A DNA stretch of 33,813 nt from Nitrospirota bacterium (GTDB lineage Bacteria > Nitrospirota > Nitrospiria > Nitrospirales > Nitrospiraceae): contig JAUXQT010000041.1 of NCBI GenBank assembly GCA_030682135.1, positions 1 through 33,813 of the forward strand. The letters run 5' to 3'. How positions within the stretch are numbered: position 1 is the first letter of the stretch; every line of letters starts with the position of its first letter. Shown here piece by piece: positions 18,721-28,045 of the stretch. The position numbers were made by a program, and so were the translations under genes. Under the pieces are notes generated by a model. It was not told where the DNA came from and ran no database searches. It worked only from the letters and a program-made list of their open reading frames with translations.

Positions 18721-19122
18721 TCAGGCCGTAAAGGCCGAAGGAGAGACGGCGATGGTTGGGAACGCCTTGAGAATCTGGCGATCGTTCGTCACCAGCGGCA
18801 CCTCCAGATCCTGGGCAAGGGCGACGAATTCGCAATCGTACGCTGAACAACCGGATCGACTGGCAAGATCCAATACCTGACGCGAGACCACGCTATATTC
18901 GTGTCCGGTCAACCACCGTTCTGCTTCATCGATGATCACGAGCGCCTTTTCAAGTTGAAGCGCATCTGTGCGGACAAGACTGATCAACACATTACGAAAC
19001 TCTGACCGCCACAGTAACGGCGCGGTCCACACTGCATCCTGTTGTAATACCGCTTCGCTCTCTTGTGTTCGTTGGCCTTGGACATAGAGGTAGATCAACA
19101 GATTCGTATCGGCAACGATCAC
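18721..19122 (-). CDS. vapC: VapC-type PIN-domain toxin
   Basis: 133 residues, a metal-dependent ribonuclease of the type II toxin family. The four acidic residues are present: Asp 5 in IVADTNLLIYLY, Glu 41 in LLWRSEFRNVL, Asp 96 in GCSAYDCEFVALA and Asp 114 in LVTNDRQIL. The start is GTG at 19122-19120, overlapping the antitoxin stop as GTGA, the usual coupled arrangement. The RNA target cannot be told. Its 3' end faces the palindromic repeat at 18518. Confidence 0.93.
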   Translation of the reverse strand: MIVADTNLLIYLYVQGQRTQESEAVLQQDAVWTAPLLWRSEFRNVLISLVRTDALQLEKALVIIDEAERWLTGHEYSVVSRQVLDLASRSGCSAYDCEFVALAQDLEVPLVTNDRQILKAFPTIAVSPSAFTA

Positions 19123-20857: not shown

Positions 20858-20859
20858 TC

Positions 20860-20978
20860 GGTTGCTGAAACAGGCGCCCAACTTCGTTCTCAGCTCGAAA
20901 AATCCTCAACGTACCCCAGAGGGTACGCCTCCGGTATTTTCTCGCCTGCGGCCTCGTTGACCACCTGTTTGAGCAACC
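20860..20978. repeat. Palindromic intergenic repeat, copy 2
   Basis: 119 bases with the same ends as copy 1 and the centre CGTACCCCAGAGGGTACG. It starts two bases after the esterase stop codon, exactly as copy 1 starts two bases after the 89-residue gene. It lies between convergent genes (esterase and fic). Weak similarity continues to about 21035 (CGACCTTGCTGG). Confidence 0.85.
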
Positions 20979-21055
20979 GCGCGCTTTGCCGATTCTTTTT
21001 TCGACCTTGCTGGAGAAAGCTTTCGACAGGTTCGCTATACACTCCTTAATCGGGG

Positions 21056-22396
21056 CTATGCGCTTGCGGCACTTCTCAACCTTTCCATCATTTTGTCGGC
21101 CTGGATAAAGACAAATTCTTTTCCCCGCTTTTCTTTCTTGAGAAACCCTTTTTTGGCAAGTTCGAGCAGGTCATTGCGAGAGGTCTGGTATACAATTCCA
21201 TGAGAAGTTCGGTGGGTATCAAATGTGTAGATCTCCTGAGGATGCTGAATGGCATGAGACAGAAGACTTCTCTGGCGCATGTTTAATCCAGGGTATTTTT
21301 TCAAGGCATGGTTCAACCCTGCCAGTTCTTTCTGCTTTCCTCGGATATAATTTTGTATATCTTCGCAAGCTAGCTTTATTGCTTTTAGGTTATAGAAAAG
21401 GAAGTACGTTAGATCATTCTCGTCGGTTTCTGTATGAACATAGGCGCGAACGTACTGTCCGGGGGATCTTTGTATATATCGTGATATTGCTAGGTATTCA
21501 AAAAGTAGATGCCCGCGAGATAGAAGATACCAATACATTAAAGCTCTTGCGGTTCTTCCATTTCCATCACTGAACGGGTGGTCGTAGGCTAACCAGAAAT
21601 GAAGCATCACAGCTTTTATGACAGGATGAATCCATTTGCGCTGACTATCTTCATTGGCAAATTGGCAAAATGCATGCAATCTTTCTGGAAGAACCTTGAA
21701 GTCAGGGGGTGTATGAACGGTTTCTTCTTTGTAATTCACCACTATTTCATTGTTAGTCCTGAGGCGACCTGAATCTTCTGGATAGTCCAATGTGTCTGCG
21801 GTAATTCGTTGATGAATTTCGATCACGAGCTCTTTTGAGAGACTGACCTTCCTATTCTCTCTGATGAACTGCATGGTTTCCCAATTGTTCAGGATCATCT
21901 GCTCGCTTCTGTCTTTAGGTTTTCGTCCTGTCTGTAGTAATTCCTTGGCTTTCTTGGTTGTGGTTGCGGCACCCTCTAGCTGACTGGAAGCGATGGCTTC
22001 GTCCATTAGCGATCTGATGATGAATTGTTCTTTTCCTGGCAATGGACCTGGATGCTCTGACACGATGTTGCCTCCAGCCCAGACATCGATGTCGTGGAGG
22101 GACCTTTGAAGACTATCTGGTATCCAATACCAAAACGGCGCTCCTACTTTGTCCGTGAACGGAGCTTGCTTAAAGTTCGCTCGTCTTCCAAGCTTTAATA
22201 ACGCCCACGCCTCCTCATGGGTTAATCCATTTGTTATCGGGAAATATCTGAAATGATGCCAATCAGCATAGCGCTCGTTGGCTCTTTGGATCATTTTTTG
22301 AAACTCTGGTTCAGTCCCCAACTCAAAAAGCTTTCGCACACTCTCAGCGCTTTTGAGAGTTTCAGCGTAATTGGGGGGAGTTGCGATGATTGCCAT
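21056..22396 (-). CDS. fic: Fic-domain protein (putative AMP-transferase), class II with C-terminal winged helix
   Basis: 446 residues from the ATG at 22396; a TTG nine bases upstream is in frame but has no ribosome site. The Fic motif HPFSDGNGRTAR is at about 273-284 with all catalytic residues (His 273, Asp/Gly/Asn/Arg). The inhibitory helix motif SSQLEG at 137-142 (Ser 137, Glu 141, Gly 142) lies before the Fic core, which marks a self-inhibited class II protein. The C-terminus (about 370-440) has a winged-helix look: SRNDLLELAKKGFLKKEKRG. It would transfer AMP from ATP to a target protein, perhaps itself. The gene is clearly AT-richer than all neighbours, which suggests recent transfer. 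Confidence 0.93.
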   Translation of the reverse strand: MAIIATPPNYAETLKSAESVRKLFELGTEPEFQKMIQRANERYADWHHFRYFPITNGLTHEEAWALLKLGRRANFKQAPFTDKVGAPFWYWIPDSLQRSLHDIDVWAGGNIVSEHPGPLPGKEQFIIRSLMDEAIASSQLEGAATTTKKAKELLQTGRKPKDRSEQMILNNWETMQFIRENRKVSLSKELVIEIHQRITADTLDYPEDSGRLRTNNEIVVNYKEETVHTPPDFKVLPERLHAFCQFANEDSQRKWIHPVIKAVMLHFWLAYDHPFSDGNGRTARALMYWYLLSRGHLLFEYLAISRYIQRSPGQYVRAYVHTETDENDLTYFLFYNLKAIKLACEDIQNYIRGKQKELAGLNHALKKYPGLNMRQRSLLSHAIQHPQEIYTFDTHRTSHGIVYQTSRNDLLELAKKGFLKKEKRGKEFVFIQADKMMERLRSAASA

Positions 22397-22402
22397 ATTT
22401 TC

Positions 22403-22466
22403 CAAATACTAAAATGTACTAAACATTTATAAATTAGTATTTGATTGAAGTCAACAAATACTAATT
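22403..22466 (-). promoter_or_regulatory. Promoter and operator array of fic
   Basis: On the minus strand TTGACT (22454-22449), a 17-base spacer and TATAAA (22431-22426) give a near-consensus promoter. The 10-mer CAAATACTAA occurs three times: 22403-22412, inverted at 22434-22443, and 22455-22464. The last two belong to a perfect 12-base inverted repeat (22432-22443 / 22455-22466) that brackets the -35 box. The first lies between the -10 box and the start codon. Confidence 0.75.
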
Positions 22467-22744
22467 ATAGTAAAAATAGTACAAAGTAGTAGATCGCAGA
22501 TAAATCCCTTGTACATCAATTTGTTCGACGGGCCACTAAGAGACGCTGAAAAAGATTGATTAGTAAGAGGCGGGCTTCGATTAACTTACCGTAAAGAAAG
22601 TTTTCGAATTTACTGCCGGCATCCTGCGCGAACTCTGATCGGCTGCTGAAAATTCGACCTTCTCACCCGCCCAACCCCCAGCGCGCCAAGACGCGCTGTT
22701 TTCCCAAGCTTCGTTCTCACTCGCGTGCCTCCCTGCGATGCACC
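22467..22744. other. Gene-free stretch with degenerate repeat remnants
   Basis: The first 100 bases continue the AT-rich sequence upstream of fic. From about 22637 the text GGCTGCTGAAAATTCG and, further on, AAGCTTCGTTCTCACTCG resemble the left arm of the palindromic repeats (GGTTGCTGAAACAGG ... AACTTCGTTCTC), with the centre replaced. I read it as a decayed repeat ending at the 3' end of the nuclease-STAND gene. No open frame worth reporting is present. Confidence 0.45.
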
Positions 22745-25700
22745 CTATGCTCTATTTTCGGATACTCTAGCGAGCGCTTCTTCCAGTCGCTTTGCCTCCG
22801 GGACACCCAAACCGACCAGTGCGGCGAGGAGTTGATCCACGTCTGACCCCACCGCCACATCATTCTTGAGTCGAGCCGGCTCAGCTTGGTGAATTTGCCC
22901 AAGCCAAAGGCAGAACCGCCGGCCAATCCCATAATCAACCCAGAACTCCGTGTCCTGAGGATAGCTTCGTATCCACGCTTTAGCCGCCGTGACCATGAAT
23001 GGCAGATGCGTCGATCTTAGAGATACTTCCAGTAAATTGAGTGTCACCAGAGCGAGGAAGAGTGACGGACCGCTCTCGACCAGCTTTTCCAGCACAGGAA
23101 TGAACGGGGGAAGCCGATCAATGCACACGGGAGGCAAGTAGCATCGAGGCGGCTGGCCGATGCCATAGTCGTTGAAAAAGACTACGGCGATAGCCGGCCC
23201 GATATGTGTCTCAATGGAACCACCTCGTTGGCCTCGTAGCCGCTTCCATCCCGCACTTGCCATCAAACGGCCAGCGACCTTGGAGTGAACACCAACCGCG
23301 ACTGACTCCTCAAGTGCTCGATCATTGAAATATGCGATATCACCGCTCCGCAGGAACGACGGAAGGATGTCGTAAAACGACGTGTCAGGCAACGAGCCGA
23401 TCGGATCCAGCGCGAGCTGCTCAATCTCTGGCAACAAAAGCCCTGGTAGGCACCTGGCCAGCAGTTCGAAGTACGCATCGTTCCATTCCCGAGGCGGATT
23501 CTCAACGTCTTCGGTTGGATCCAGCCCGGCCCCATTCGCCTCGGCGGTCCAGCCTGCATACGCTCGAGCCATCTCTCTGAGCCATGGTCGTTTGCCCATG
23601 TCGACGAGGCTCCGGCATTGGACTAGCCACACCGCAGCAGCCTGATGGTCAGCGTATTCCTCAGATCGTGAGCGCCGTTTCACCGGCTCGTCGCGCTCTA
23701 CGCGTCCACCCCGAAGGCGAATATGCCGCCGGAGTCGTGGAGCCTCAATTGGAAAGGCTGGCCAGTCGGGTTCGGAACGATGATCACCCAGCCATGCAAG
23801 TTCGGCCTCCACGGCTTTCTGGACCCGCTTGCGTTGGGGATCGACACGGGCGGCGACTTCTTCCTCGGGGACTCCCCATTTGCGATGGGGCCGAATACAT
23901 GCCGCAAAGGCACACCGTAGCACGGCACGGAGCAATCGCTCGTCGATGGCGGCCAGCGTGGTAAACGCTACACCGAAGCCGTGCGCCGCAGCCGGCTCCT
24001 CGCGTGTGACGACCTGGAGTAGCGACCGGACATCCTCGGTAGCGGCGCGATCTTTTAGAGCGTGAATCATGCCAACGAACGCAATCGCAACCGGATTGAA
24101 CCGAAGTCCTGATCGAAATCGATGGACCGGGTCTTCCTTGGTTCGCAGCGCCTGGGCGAAGAGGCCGTGCGCCCAGGCTTGATGCTTGGCGCGGAGTTCA
24201 GCATCGCCATCGCGCATGACGATCGTCGCCGTGCTCACCACCGCGTGTTCCTGCATCCAATCCTCGTCCTTGTCCTCCTCCGCATCCGCGTTTTTTGGAG
24301 CGGCCGTCACGCGTTGCGCCCACTCCACCGCCGCCGCGGCGAACTGGGCTGATGAGCGGGACGGATCTTCCAGCGCCAGCATGACACCGGCCTGCATGTT
24401 TGCGTCCTCCCACCTACCCTCTGAGGCGTCCTGGAGAGCTGCGAGGTGCTGGCGTTCGGTTTCAGGTGGCACATACTCGTGAGCCGCCCTCTGGGTGCCA
24501 TCGGACAGCGGAAGAGAAACCTCACGCCAGTTGCTGGGGTCAACACGATTAATTGCGTGAACTAACATGAAGGCGGGATCGCGAAAGTTCGATTGATTGT
24601 CTGGAGGACCGAGCCGCTCCGCCGCACGACGTAGAAGAGTATTCAGCGCCTCTCTCAGTTCCTCGGGGCGCCCTACGGCATATTTATTTAGTAGGGCTTC
24701 AAGCGAAGCACGTCTTGAAGGACGTTTCTTGAGGCTGTCTAGGCTGACCACACCAACCGGCTCTTTCTCCAGAGCCCTCAGGCCGAACAAATCCGGGTAC
24801 TCCACATTGTCGCGGAGTTGTCGTTCACGATCCAGAGACAGAAGCTCGGGGCACGCCACAAACGGCACCGCCGCCTCTCGAGACTTCGGCCAATGCGAAA
24901 GTAGGAGATCAACGGCGACTAGGAGAAAAGCCGCCGGAGAGCCGGGAGGACCCAAAACGTCAGCAAGCACCGTTTCGACCGACTCTCCGGTTTCGATCCG
25001 GCGGTGCGCCCAAGCCTCGAGCGCCATCAGAGCCGATGTGACGCAATTGCGGCCGGCGCCCTCACGTGACCACGCATACGATCGCATCCAGGGAAAGACT
25101 CGCTCGCCTTCTGGGAATGCGATGATGATCGAATCAGTGCCGTACTTACGCCCCTTGCTATAGTACGCGATCGCTCGGTCAACCAGCTGCCGGACCAGCG
25201 ACAACCCATTCTGCGGGGCATGGGTAAGAAGCTCAAAGAACGGTCCCTGCGCGGGGGGTGCGGACACGAAATCGAGATCATGATGGGTGAACGGTCCCCT
25301 CATTCCATGATGGTCATCCTTCTCATCTCGATGTTGCTCCGCAATCAGTGCCGCCACGGTGAGCTCTGCGAGTTCGGCAGGAGCAGACTGGGCAAGCGAT
25401 CCGCGGAATTTCAGGATGCTGCGGATAACGTTTTCAGGACGATGATGACGCTGGCTCAGTGATCGCAGGTACTCCCCAGCGAGCTCTGGCGTGCGATGGC
25501 AGAACGCGAGAAAGACGGTCCGAAGGTCGGACTCCAGCGAAGCAGTCCGCTCGCGGTCAAGTTCGCCATTGAATGGTTCCCGTAGATCACGGAAGTGTTC
25601 AACATGGCGGGCAGCCTCAATCTCGGTCAGCCAGCGATAAAGCCAGGGCACTATTAATGGAGTGAGTGGATCGTGTCCTCCCATGCCGATAGACCAAGCA

Positions 25701-27916
25701 GTGTAATAGTCGACCACATCGGGGATGGTTGCCACAGGCACGCTTTGTCCGAGACTGAGGAGCCAGGCAATTAACCGGTACCAAGATGGCCCGCTGGGCA
25801 CGTTGACACTCGGCGGGATTATCGCTGGGTCAACCCCGAGAGCCTCGAAGAACTTCGAAGCTGGCTCAACGTCGACCGCCATCACGAGCCGGATGAGCTC
25901 ACGGAGCATGCTCGCGCGGTTGGCGAGCAGAAGTCCCGAAGCCCGCGTCAGCAACTCGAGGCTGATCTCCGAGCGAACGAGCGCCAGCAATGCCGCCCGG
26001 CGCCACGAACCATGCGTACCCTCGCAGCTAAGACGTTCAACGAGAGATTGCCAGCGCGTGCTATCGACCGCACGCTCAAGAGCCAGGCGCGCGGCGAGCT
26101 CCACGCCCCTCGCCAAGGCCGCCGAGGCGGGGCGGGTGAGAGGCAGGCGCTCGATCATCGTCGGATCGGAATGAAGCAGGTTGCCGATCGCCCATTCGCG
26201 CAGGACATCATGACGGAACGCGACGCGGTCGTTTCGCAAGTCGCGCAGTGTCTCACTCGCAACCAAGGCATTGACCGGCTGTGCTGGGTGATTACTGACG
26301 TCTAGCGGTCCGGCGTGGGAGAGCGCCACTTCCGCTAGAGCCTTAAGCAGCCTGGCCCGGTCTCTGTGGTCACCGTCGAGTTTGCCATCAGCCGTCTGCC
26401 ACCACTGCTCAGCCATGTCGGCCTCGGTGCGCAGGACTATGGCGTACTCTGGCCGAGTCACAAGTCGCGCGAGGCGAAAAAGGTTCCGGGTCACGTCGCG
26501 TGCCGGGTGAGTATCGGCCAGGAGTGGGGCGAGCCTGGGAGCAGCGTGCCGGATCTCGTCAACTTCAGCGGCGCTTAGTTCGTCGATCATAATAGGCTCG
26601 GCGCGGCCCAAGCGGTCGAGCACGTCAGGCGGTAGCCAACTGGGCTCTTCTACACCGAAGTTGCGCCTCGCGGTCACGATCACTGCGAAGCCTGGGATGC
26701 CCGCTGCTTCCCGGACAAGGTCAACAACGGTTCTCCGCTCTTCATCCTCAAAGAAATCCAGGTTATCGACAAAGAGAACCGCTCCGCCGTCGGCCGCAAG
26801 ATCCGTCAGCAGTTCGCGAGCTGTGCCATCGAACCCGAGCACCGCCCGCATTGCGGCCCACCCCCTTGGCGTACTTCGGCCAGGGCTTAGCACAATGACT
26901 TGGGACTCTGTGGCAACCTGTCCAGCGAAGTGCTTCAGCACGCCAGATTTTCCAACACCCGCGTCACCCCGGATCTCAACATAACGACCGTCGTCAAGAG
27001 CAGCGTGGACGGCCGCGACACGCTCATGTCTGGTCAATATCACGTCGCCGACGTGATCGCTGATATCAGCAAGCGCGTTGCGGGAAGCCTCGGCGAGAAT
27101 CACGCGCGCGGATAAGTAGCGCCGGTCGCCCACAAAGCGAAAAGACTGCCCCCTGAGGTCCTCGATCAGACGATCGCGGATGCGGTCCCCGCCACTGGCC
27201 GCGACCTTCAGCGCGAGGTCAACCAAGCTTGTCCAAAGGTTTCCCGCCCGCTGAGTATCGTCAGGGTGGAGAGCACGGACGGCACGTTCTTTTGCGAGCG
27301 CCTCGGATGCGGAGCCTTGGGCAGTGAAGTCAAATACAAGGATCTGGAGTTTGCGCAGGAGCCGCCAAACGGTCTCGTCATCGTCTGATGACTCCGCATC
27401 GCGCAAATGCGATTTGAAGGTGTGCACGAAGGTGCGCATGTCATCATTGGCGAAGCCCGGTCGGTCGATCCCCGCCCTGAAAGTCGCCGAGTCGCCTAAC
27501 TGTCGTGCCCAAGTCAGAACATCCTGATAAGCGCCATCGATCTTTCGGGATGTTCGGGCCGTTGCAATCGCGAGTTCGTAGCGCGTGGTCCAAAAGTCTG
27601 GCCTCCTTGAAGCCTCGACGATCTGACCAACGACTGCGCGAAATACCCGGTCAGTAGACGCAAATGTGATGCTCCGCTTGACCTGAATCTCGAGAACTGC
27701 GGGAGCGCCACGTAGATCATGGGCGTGCACGATCACGTCATCAAGCGGCCGGCCCTCGGCCGCGCGCTGGAATTCGATGCGGTCGATCGTCGTGCCTGGC
27801 AACCCGCGGGGCTCCGTGCCCGTCAACATGGACAGCAGGTAGTGCGCGCCGACCTGACCCTCGAAATGGCTGCCGGCCGGTCCGCTCGACGCAGGATTGG
27901 TTGTGTTCGCCTTCAC
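22745..27916 (-). CDS. Nuclease-STAND NTPase fusion, Avs-like antiphage candidate
   Basis: 1723 residues. Residues about 15-130 look like a PD-(D/E)XK nuclease of the Mrr/Cap4 type: FEGQVGAHYLLSML (Glu 19), LDDVIVH (Asp 60) and VLEIQVKRS (Glu 76, Gln 78, Lys 80). An NTPase domain follows with Walker A GDAGVGKSG (Lys 323) and Walker B AVLFVDNLDFFED (Asp 384), then a winged-helix-like block (FRHDVLREWAIGNLL). About 1100 helical residues make up the C-terminus, the usual place of the target sensor in STAND proteins. The start GTG at 27916 has GGAGG 9 bases upstream; a TTG at 27934 is in frame. Known Avs proteins bind phage terminase or portal and then cut DNA. Neither the target nor defence activity can be shown here. 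Confidence 0.78.
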   Translation of the reverse strand: MKANTTNPASSGPAGSHFEGQVGAHYLLSMLTGTEPRGLPGTTIDRIEFQRAAEGRPLDDVIVHAHDLRGAPAVLEIQVKRSITFASTDRVFRAVVGQIVEASRRPDFWTTRYELAIATARTSRKIDGAYQDVLTWARQLGDSATFRAGIDRPGFANDDMRTFVHTFKSHLRDAESSDDDETVWRLLRKLQILVFDFTAQGSASEALAKERAVRALHPDDTQRAGNLWTSLVDLALKVAASGGDRIRDRLIEDLRGQSFRFVGDRRYLSARVILAEASRNALADISDHVGDVILTRHERVAAVHAALDDGRYVEIRGDAGVGKSGVLKHFAGQVATESQVIVLSPGRSTPRGWAAMRAVLGFDGTARELLTDLAADGGAVLFVDNLDFFEDEERRTVVDLVREAAGIPGFAVIVTARRNFGVEEPSWLPPDVLDRLGRAEPIMIDELSAAEVDEIRHAAPRLAPLLADTHPARDVTRNLFRLARLVTRPEYAIVLRTEADMAEQWWQTADGKLDGDHRDRARLLKALAEVALSHAGPLDVSNHPAQPVNALVASETLRDLRNDRVAFRHDVLREWAIGNLLHSDPTMIERLPLTRPASAALARGVELAARLALERAVDSTRWQSLVERLSCEGTHGSWRRAALLALVRSEISLELLTRASGLLLANRASMLRELIRLVMAVDVEPASKFFEALGVDPAIIPPSVNVPSGPSWYRLIAWLLSLGQSVPVATIPDVVDYYTAWSIGMGGHDPLTPLIVPWLYRWLTEIEAARHVEHFRDLREPFNGELDRERTASLESDLRTVFLAFCHRTPELAGEYLRSLSQRHHRPENVIRSILKFRGSLAQSAPAELAELTVAALIAEQHRDEKDDHHGMRGPFTHHDLDFVSAPPAQGPFFELLTHAPQNGLSLVRQLVDRAIAYYSKGRKYGTDSIIIAFPEGERVFPWMRSYAWSREGAGRNCVTSALMALEAWAHRRIETGESVETVLADVLGPPGSPAAFLLVAVDLLLSHWPKSREAAVPFVACPELLSLDRERQLRDNVEYPDLFGLRALEKEPVGVVSLDSLKKRPSRRASLEALLNKYAVGRPEELREALNTLLRRAAERLGPPDNQSNFRDPAFMLVHAINRVDPSNWREVSLPLSDGTQRAAHEYVPPETERQHLAALQDASEGRWEDANMQAGVMLALEDPSRSSAQFAAAAVEWAQRVTAAPKNADAEEDKDEDWMQEHAVVSTATIVMRDGDAELRAKHQAWAHGLFAQALRTKEDPVHRFRSGLRFNPVAIAFVGMIHALKDRAATEDVRSLLQVVTREEPAAAHGFGVAFTTLAAIDERLLRAVLRCAFAACIRPHRKWGVPEEEVAARVDPQRKRVQKAVEAELAWLGDHRSEPDWPAFPIEAPRLRRHIRLRGGRVERDEPVKRRSRSEEYADHQAAAVWLVQCRSLVDMGKRPWLREMARAYAGWTAEANGAGLDPTEDVENPPREWNDAYFELLARCLPGLLLPEIEQLALDPIGSLPDTSFYDILPSFLRSGDIAYFNDRALEESVAVGVHSKVAGRLMASAGWKRLRGQRGGSIETHIGPAIAVVFFNDYGIGQPPRCYLPPVCIDRLPPFIPVLEKLVESGPSLFLALVTLNLLEVSLRSTHLPFMVTAAKAWIRSYPQDTEFWVDYGIGRRFCLWLGQIHQAEPARLKNDVAVGSDVDQLLAALVGLGVPEAKRLEEALARVSENRA

Positions 27917-28045
27917 CAGTTTTGGCCTCCACAATCACTGGTCGCCCTTGAAGAGTTTTCTCTCAGCGCGCTTCTTCGCGACCAATGCACACGTCGTTGG
28001 ACCTGCAGAAAACTATTGTGCACAAGAGAAACCGGTCCCGCAGAA

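Follow-up and report, generated by a model that had tools for sequence, protein, structure and literature searches.

The promoter of a fic gene in a Nitrospirota bacterium (the window, the whole stretch analysed here, comprises 33,813 nucleotides) is embedded in an array of six hexamer half-sites, which is most probably an operator through which a SoFic-like class II Fic AMPylase, bound there by its winged helix, holds down its own expression. Computation directly showed the array itself, that it is unique in the genome and conserved together with fic, and that its half-sites covary with Fic residues 403-404; from these results we infer physical binding and repression rather than activation. 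Comparison across phyla strongly supports autoregulation of this type of Fic, whose tail very probably binds the array and turns its own gene down. An earlier note on this DNA had suggested that the Fic C-terminus binds here and controls fic; the covariation of half-sites and residues 403-404 gives that proposal strong support, whereas the 10-base unit and the count of three sites on which it was built did not hold.

The half-site array at the fic promoter

The fic start codon, ATG, lies at 22394-22396 on the minus strand, where it aligns with the start codons of orthologs; this is a correction to the earlier note. The features of the promoter region are as follows.

21056-22396, minus strand: fic gene (446 aa) for a class II Fic that ends in a winged helix (open frame, Pfam, PADLOC)
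22403-22466, no strand: stretch of the earlier note, with three CAAATACTAA copies and a 12-bp inverted repeat
22407-22412, minus strand: half-site TTAGTA (-16 from the ATG), beside a weak ribosome-binding site, kept in orthologs
22417-22439, no strand: putative operator dyad O2, TACTAA-N11-TTAGTA, spanning the -10 box; the genome's only exact match, conserved before the fic genes of relatives
22426-22431, minus strand: predicted -10 box TATAAA, within O2 (promoter pattern in Nitrospira-type orthologs)
22449-22454, minus strand: predicted -35 box TTGACT, between O1 and O2 (TTGACA in 10 other orthologs)
22459-22481, no strand: putative operator dyad O1, sense TACTAT-N11-TTAGTA, directly upstream of the -35 box
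22486-22491, minus strand: outer half-site TACTAC (-95), 10 bp from O1
22560-22565, minus strand: single TACTAA half-site (-169), apart from the array and retained by several Nitrospira orthologs

In the sense direction the array reads TACTAC (-95), TACTAT (-85), TTAGTA (-68), the -35 box TTGACT, TACTAA (-43), the -10 box TATAAA, TTAGTA (-26) and TTAGTA (-16), and it is symmetric around a point near 22449 (common centre near -53). Four half-sites are exact copies of TTAGTA/TACTAA (22407-22412, 22417-22422, 22434-22439 and 22459-22464) and two carry one mismatch (22476-22481, ATAGTA; 22486-22491, GTAGTA), which makes six half-sites instead of three sites. Both dyads have the outward-facing form TACTAw-N11-wTAGTA with half-sites 17 bases start to start; O1 and O2 are spaced by 42 bp, that is four helical turns, the outer half-sites stand 10 bp or one helical turn beyond the dyads, and the promoter TTGACT-N17-TATAAA lies inside the array. 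The three copies of CAAATACTAA in 64 bp described earlier are present (22403-22412 on the plus strand, 22434-22443 on the minus strand, 22455-22464 on the plus strand), and the perfect 12-base inverted repeat (22432-22443 / 22455-22466) is exact, with the -35 box in its 11-base gap. This repeat is the inner pair of the larger symmetry and differs from the conserved dyad TACTAw-N11-wTAGTA. The 10-mer is not the unit of the array: its TTTG tail varies between close orthologs, and the hexamer TTAGTA is what is conserved. A tandem-repeat scan returned only a weak 9-bp row.

Frequent occurrence of the 10-mer at unrelated promoters, named in the earlier note as refuting its reading, was not seen, since the whole 3,749,092-base genome holds three copies of CAAATACTAA, all at fic. 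The dyad TACTAw-N11-wTAGTA was found genome-wide in two places, 22417-22439 and 22459-22481. A wider regulon in this genome was considered and set aside: when up to 2 mismatches were allowed, 8 places were found, 2 of them at fic and the other 6 all with 2 mismatches; the reversed pattern, used as control for this relaxed scan, gave 106 places.

In the mechanism that we propose, the C-terminal winged helix of Fic would bind the six TTAGTA half-sites, and Fic on O1 and O2 would cover the surroundings of both promoter boxes and of the start site. With Fic over the promoter, RNA polymerase would be shut out and a potentially toxic enzyme kept low; negative feedback would be the simplest account. 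Fic acts probably as a dimer, by analogy with SoFic and CccR, and the N11 dyads together with the direct steps of one turn point to several dimers that load cooperatively. Fic might instead bind the array and activate or toggle its own promoter, as the place of O1 before the -35 box is one that activators use too. O2, however, extends over the -10 box and the putative start of transcription, both promoter boxes match the consensus well and CccR, the closest tested case, is a repressor, so that we regard activation as quite unlikely. Inverted repeats near a start codon could also form an RNA hairpin or leader structure acting on translation. Against this, the 51 transcribed nt show no folding advantage over shuffled sequence (z 0.01), the half-sites extend upstream of the promoter and their spacing corresponds to DNA helical turns; the RNA explanation was rejected as very improbable.

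The Fic protein and conservation of the array in relatives

The Nitrospira Fic is best read, from its sequence, as a SoFic-like class II Fic AMPylase. It matches the Pfam Fic domain PF02661 (6.8e-22) and the PADLOC SoFic model (1.9e-46, residues 119-434), and scores 78.5 bits with the NCBIfam SoFic equivalog, against a cut-off of 550. Class II Fic proteins carry an inhibitory motif, [S/T]xxxE[G/N], N-terminal to the Fic core. The following elements were located in the gene.

21545-21580, minus strand: catalytic Fic motif HPFSDGNGRTAR, residues 273-284
21971-21988, minus strand: inhibitory-helix motif SSQLEG, residues 137-142
21059-21295, minus strand: C-terminal winged-helix domain, residues 368-446 (AlphaFold2)
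21185-21190, minus strand: codons of Tyr403-Gln404, the candidate specificity pair (covariation)

The motif HPFSDGNGRTAR agrees with the class II catalytic pattern HPFx[D/E]GN[G/K]RxxR, and H273, D277-R281 and R284, as well as E141 and G142 of the inhibitory motif, are invariant in 54 aligned sequences. The passages on CbFic2 (PMC10628234) and CccR (PMC9755527) describe an inhibitory motif for these proteins also. The winged-helix-like C-terminus noticed earlier was borne out by AlphaFold2, both in the full-length model (pLDDT 89.4, pTM 0.84) and in the similar model of the isolated domain (pLDDT 90): the modelled winged helix consists of helices 373-384 and 392-399, a recognition helix 403-415, which residues 403-404 begin, and a hairpin 419-432. 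The best fold matches of the isolated domain were DNA-binding winged helices, with the AspA-DNA complex 5k5q first at a weak E-value of 2.7e-4. Fold matches of the full-length model were SoFic (top PDB), CbFic2, FICD and other Fic proteins; the VIA-align listing is dominated by the Fic core and says little on the C-terminal domain.

As a candidate for the adjacent antitoxin of a two-gene system, no separate reading frame of at least 80 aa was found on the fic strand in 20858-21055 or 22406-22744. A STAND-like gene of 1729 aa (22745-27934; PADLOC Avs4, 3.6e-6) stands directly upstream of fic, and a PIN-domain gene was seen at 18721-19122. The Avs4-like neighbour fits a defence island and proves nothing; a role of this Fic in defence is what we infer.

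We gathered 80 Fic relatives with 41-93% identity from many phyla, 79 of them with usable upstream DNA. The pattern TACTA-N13-TAGTA occurs within 250 bp upstream in 46 of the 79 loci and in one of 1130 control windows taken from the remaining DNA of the same loci; after shuffling, the upstream dyad appeared in at most one locus in any of 200 shuffles. The repeats might simply be chance or local AT-rich sequence, and the promoter stretch is indeed AT-rich. Yet a triple copy of CAAATACTAA had an expectation of 0 in 100 shuffles of the window, and with the genome uniqueness, the cross-phylum conservation against the control windows and the held-out test described below all opposing chance, this explanation was rejected as practically negligible.

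The distance from TACTA to TAGTA clusters sharply at 18, with 71 pairs, and at 28-29, with 47. Among the 42 loci with at least two exact dyads, the first dyad is accompanied by an outer-left half-site in 23 and an inner-right one in 1, and the second dyad by an inner-left half-site in 13 and an outer-right one in 19. The array was recognisable in the 11 Nitrospira-type orthologs compared, and a TTGAC(A/T)-N17-TATAAA-like pattern stands at the same place in 9 of the 11, L034 being one base off and L039 missed. Within 100 related genomes, the exact TACTAA-N11-TTAGTA was present in seven, namely six with a fic ortholog and one (G028) without. Those six are all the genomes of the 100 that have a fic ortholog with readable upstream DNA; a seventh genome with an ortholog, G019, has Ns over the promoter. 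Two of the six, G022 and G129, have a second exact-dyad site besides that of fic. The one in G129 (L198, G129:C67:5231-5253) lies about 140 bp upstream of the operator of a 41% ortholog's fic on the same contig. The genome with the 94% ortholog has another array, of three half-sites (L197:1491-1523); it precedes a predicted lipoprotein gene, and its contig also bears phage-like genes.

No neighbour gene is common to more than 10 of the 79 loci, most of those 10 being planctomycete. This argues against a third-party regulator that travels with fic, and a regulator encoded next door was rejected on this ground. In the 18 loci of the distant Fic paralogs L016-L033, TACTA-N13-TAGTA is absent before the start codon that the script chose. 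In another Fic subfamily of related genomes (L016, L018-L021, L023, L028, L032 and L033), two or three direct repeats like TTGACTCAT occur 11-12 bp apart right before the start codon, and this is possibly another autoregulated class of Fic. Three Fic genes stand in records titled for other taxa: L036 and L038, titled Obscuribacterales and Planctomycetaceae (72-74% identical to the Nitrospira Fic), and L072, titled Klebsiella pneumoniae (43%, binned genome), which may reflect transfer or mis-binning.

Half-site sequence and residues 403-404

Loci that lack TAGTA mostly have the same layout with a different hexamer, and in the aligned C-termini the hexamer changes together with residues 403-404, at the beginning of the recognition helix. 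The classes were distributed as follows.

TTAGTA: 48 rows, all Tyr403, with Gln404 in 45 and Glu404 in 3
TTGGTA: 9 rows; the domain is readable in 8, each of them Tyr-Asp
TTGACA: 3 of 3 Arg-Ala
TTGATA: Tyr-Gly or Tyr-Ala in all 5 rows
TTAGCA: His-Gln in 2 rows, Gln-Gln in 1
TTAGGA: His-Gln together with Asp408 in both rows
TTGAGA: 2 of 2 Tyr-Asn
Single rows: TTAGCT with Pro-Gln, TTGGAA with His-Glu, TATACA with Gln-Leu

Residues 403 and 404 would thus read the middle of the half-site. Residue 404 would correspond to bases 3-4 (Gln or Glu with AG, Asp with GG, Ala, Gly or Asn with GA) and residue 403 to base 5 (Tyr mostly with T, His or Arg with C or G). Classes were assigned by script, doubtful rows being decided by eye from the DNA before the protein alignment was seen, and L048, L074, L086 and L106 ('none') and L112 ('other') were left out. 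Inspected later by eye and uncounted, L106 (His-Gln) has TTAGCA-like and L086 (Tyr-Gly) TTGATA-like sites. A clear array is absent in L048, L074 and L175 (35% identity), and L148 (Arg-Pro) matches no class of the code.

The rule was fixed before it was applied to a held-out set of 69 loci, of which 57 were kept after 12 near-duplicates had been dropped; its Pro-Gln and Asp408-split refinements derive from the alignment of the first set. Scoring covered the 40 loci whose pair falls under the rule and whose upstream DNA reaches 70 bp or more. The expected hexamer ranked first of 4096 in 27 of the 40, one zero-score tie being uncounted; 2000 permutations of the predictions averaged 16.1 and never exceeded 22. 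All eight predictions other than TTAGTA ranked first of 4096, and 12 of the 32 TTAGTA predictions did not rank first. By script the expected hexamer was among the top three in 37 of 40, four of these with score zero; altogether six of the 40 predictions scored zero, including the empty tie at rank 1. Outside the rule, Asn-Gln was accompanied by TTAGGA in two of two loci (L133, L170), and Arg-Gln by TTAGCA- or TTAGCC-like sites in L130, L152, L154, L155 and L172-L174, partly by eye; L175, also Arg-Gln, has no such site.

An automatic caller made 92 confident calls in 134 loci with enough upstream DNA. For the 80 confident calls of the eight main classes, none of the 437 columns is associated with the site as strongly as 404, and 403 comes next; the two remain on top after thinning to 36 rows under 60% identity. 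TTAGTA with Tyr-Gln makes up the majority, which leaves 25 rows of these 80 to carry the code. On a tree built from the Fic part only, by a quick method, the minimum number of changes is 23 for the hexamer class and 27 for the residue pair. Contrasts at residue 404 gave 7 supported independent pairs, in which base 3 follows in 5.8 and opposes in 0.0 on average (median p 0.031); the contrasts at Asp404, with 5 pairs, and at Tyr403, with 4, have too small a number of pairs to reach significance. Out of sample, a Klebsiella plasmid Fic with 37% identity (L452, Tyr-Asn) is preceded by AACTCAATTTTCGTCAAAATTGAGTT, and a perfect AACTCAATTTT/AAAATTGAGTT dyad lies before its start (L452:1417-1442). The rule predicted TTGAGA and TTGAGT was found, which is five of six bases, with a dyad spacing one base longer. 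No clear array was seen by eye in the Vibrio plasmid relative L453 (His-Thr).

A different host transcription factor might occupy the array and govern fic, given that operator arrays alone do not identify the binding protein and that phage contigs without Fic bear such arrays. Against such a factor, changes in the half-site track residues 403-404 more closely than any other of the 437 Fic columns, no neighbour gene is widely shared and the exact dyad stands almost only alongside fic in the 100 relatives, and only at fic in its own genome. We therefore consider this explanation unlikely and favour binding by Fic itself.

Arrays on phage contigs and comparison with known systems

On viral contigs, TACTAA-N5-TACTAA-N11-TTAGTA was observed in at least 120 places and its N4 form in 32, versus 4 for an N7 control; the Tyr-Asp class form TACCAA/TTGGTA was observed in 61 places and the TTGATA class in 35, versus 2 for a permuted hexamer. 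Three code classes are thus represented on these contigs (L199-L349, L354-L448) far above the spacing and hexamer controls. A Fic match was absent in 47 of the 48 whole viral records searched, the sole exception being L232, where fic follows the array. With repeats removed, arrays lay outside frames of at least 100 aa in 81 of 108 cases (N5) and 27 of 30 (N4) for TTAGTA, 40 of 51 for TTGGTA and 10 of 26 for TTGATA, in array-bearing viral loci where such frames take up 71-77% of the DNA; of these sets, that of TTGATA is the weakest. No shared phage gene was found beside the viral arrays: PHROGs annotations of 92 of the 103 flanking genes were scattered in function, with several HNH endonucleases and no family of more than two members. 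Other operator dyads near TTAGTA-class viral arrays were found only in L326, where TTAGTA-class and TTGGTA-class arrays stand side by side on one phage contig (L326:2372-2440), and in L332, where a TTGATA dyad lies 54 bp from a TTAGTA array.

As phage contigs without Fic carry the same arrays, something other than Fic might bind them too. Tentatively, a broad cross-phylum clade of SoFic-like anti-phage Fic proteins might repress itself and read its operators by a two-residue code, and phages without Fic might carry cognate arrays of several classes, either for control of phage genes by the host Fic or to occupy Fic. If this were true, a defence protein would meet phage DNA through its own operator, and phage arrays bound by Fic would make this contact between defence enzyme and phage DNA directly testable.

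Self-repression of a Fic protein through a C-terminal helix-turn-helix (HTH) is known already. CccR of Yersinia pseudotuberculosis, a class II Fic that ends in an HTH, binds inverted repeats near the -35 and -10 boxes and so represses its own gene, for which the dimer is needed (PMC9755527); its self-repression is also cited in a passage of a 2026 review (PMC12894286). The Nitrospira Fic resembles CccR in its C-terminal HTH or winged helix and in the inverted repeats at its own -35 and -10 boxes. The CccR operator is described as one 10-bp repeat pair with a 26-bp spacer, AGATAATCAT-N26-ATGATAATCT (PMC9755527), in contrast to the six hexamers, N11 dyads and 10-11 bp direct steps of the Nitrospira array. 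Since fic has no 10-bp repeat pair with a 26-bp spacer, its operator type differs, and by analogy this Fic may work like CccR with another type of operator. CccR is in addition a T6SS effector, a feature of CccR itself (PMC9755527).

SoFic, a one-gene anti-phage system, likewise combines Fic with a C-terminal domain and an inhibitory helix (PMC12249575), at about 22% identity to the Nitrospira protein; the passages on its C-terminal domain deal with toxicity and do not mention promoter binding (PMC12249575), and DNA binding by SoFic is stated elsewhere as not demonstrated (PMC10628234). CbFic2 of Coxiella burnetii is a class II Fic whose winged helix binds DNA, as shown in the passages on it with random DNA only and with no operator known (PMC10628234). 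For CbFic2 an effect of DNA binding on AMP transfer is reported. The likeness of pNOB8 AspA and MarR-type repressors concerns the fold of the isolated domain only, with weak E-values and about 20% identity. In the literature found on Fic promoter binding, the recognition helix, SoFic and phage, and operator decoys, CccR was the sole autoregulated Fic; as far as this literature goes, the six-site architecture, its spread over many phyla within a SoFic-like clade and the code of specificity are new. The control of SoFic-type toxicity has been called an open question (PMC12249575). A built-in autorepressor with a two-residue code would partly answer how such toxicity is restrained, and the code would let a Fic protein predict its operator.
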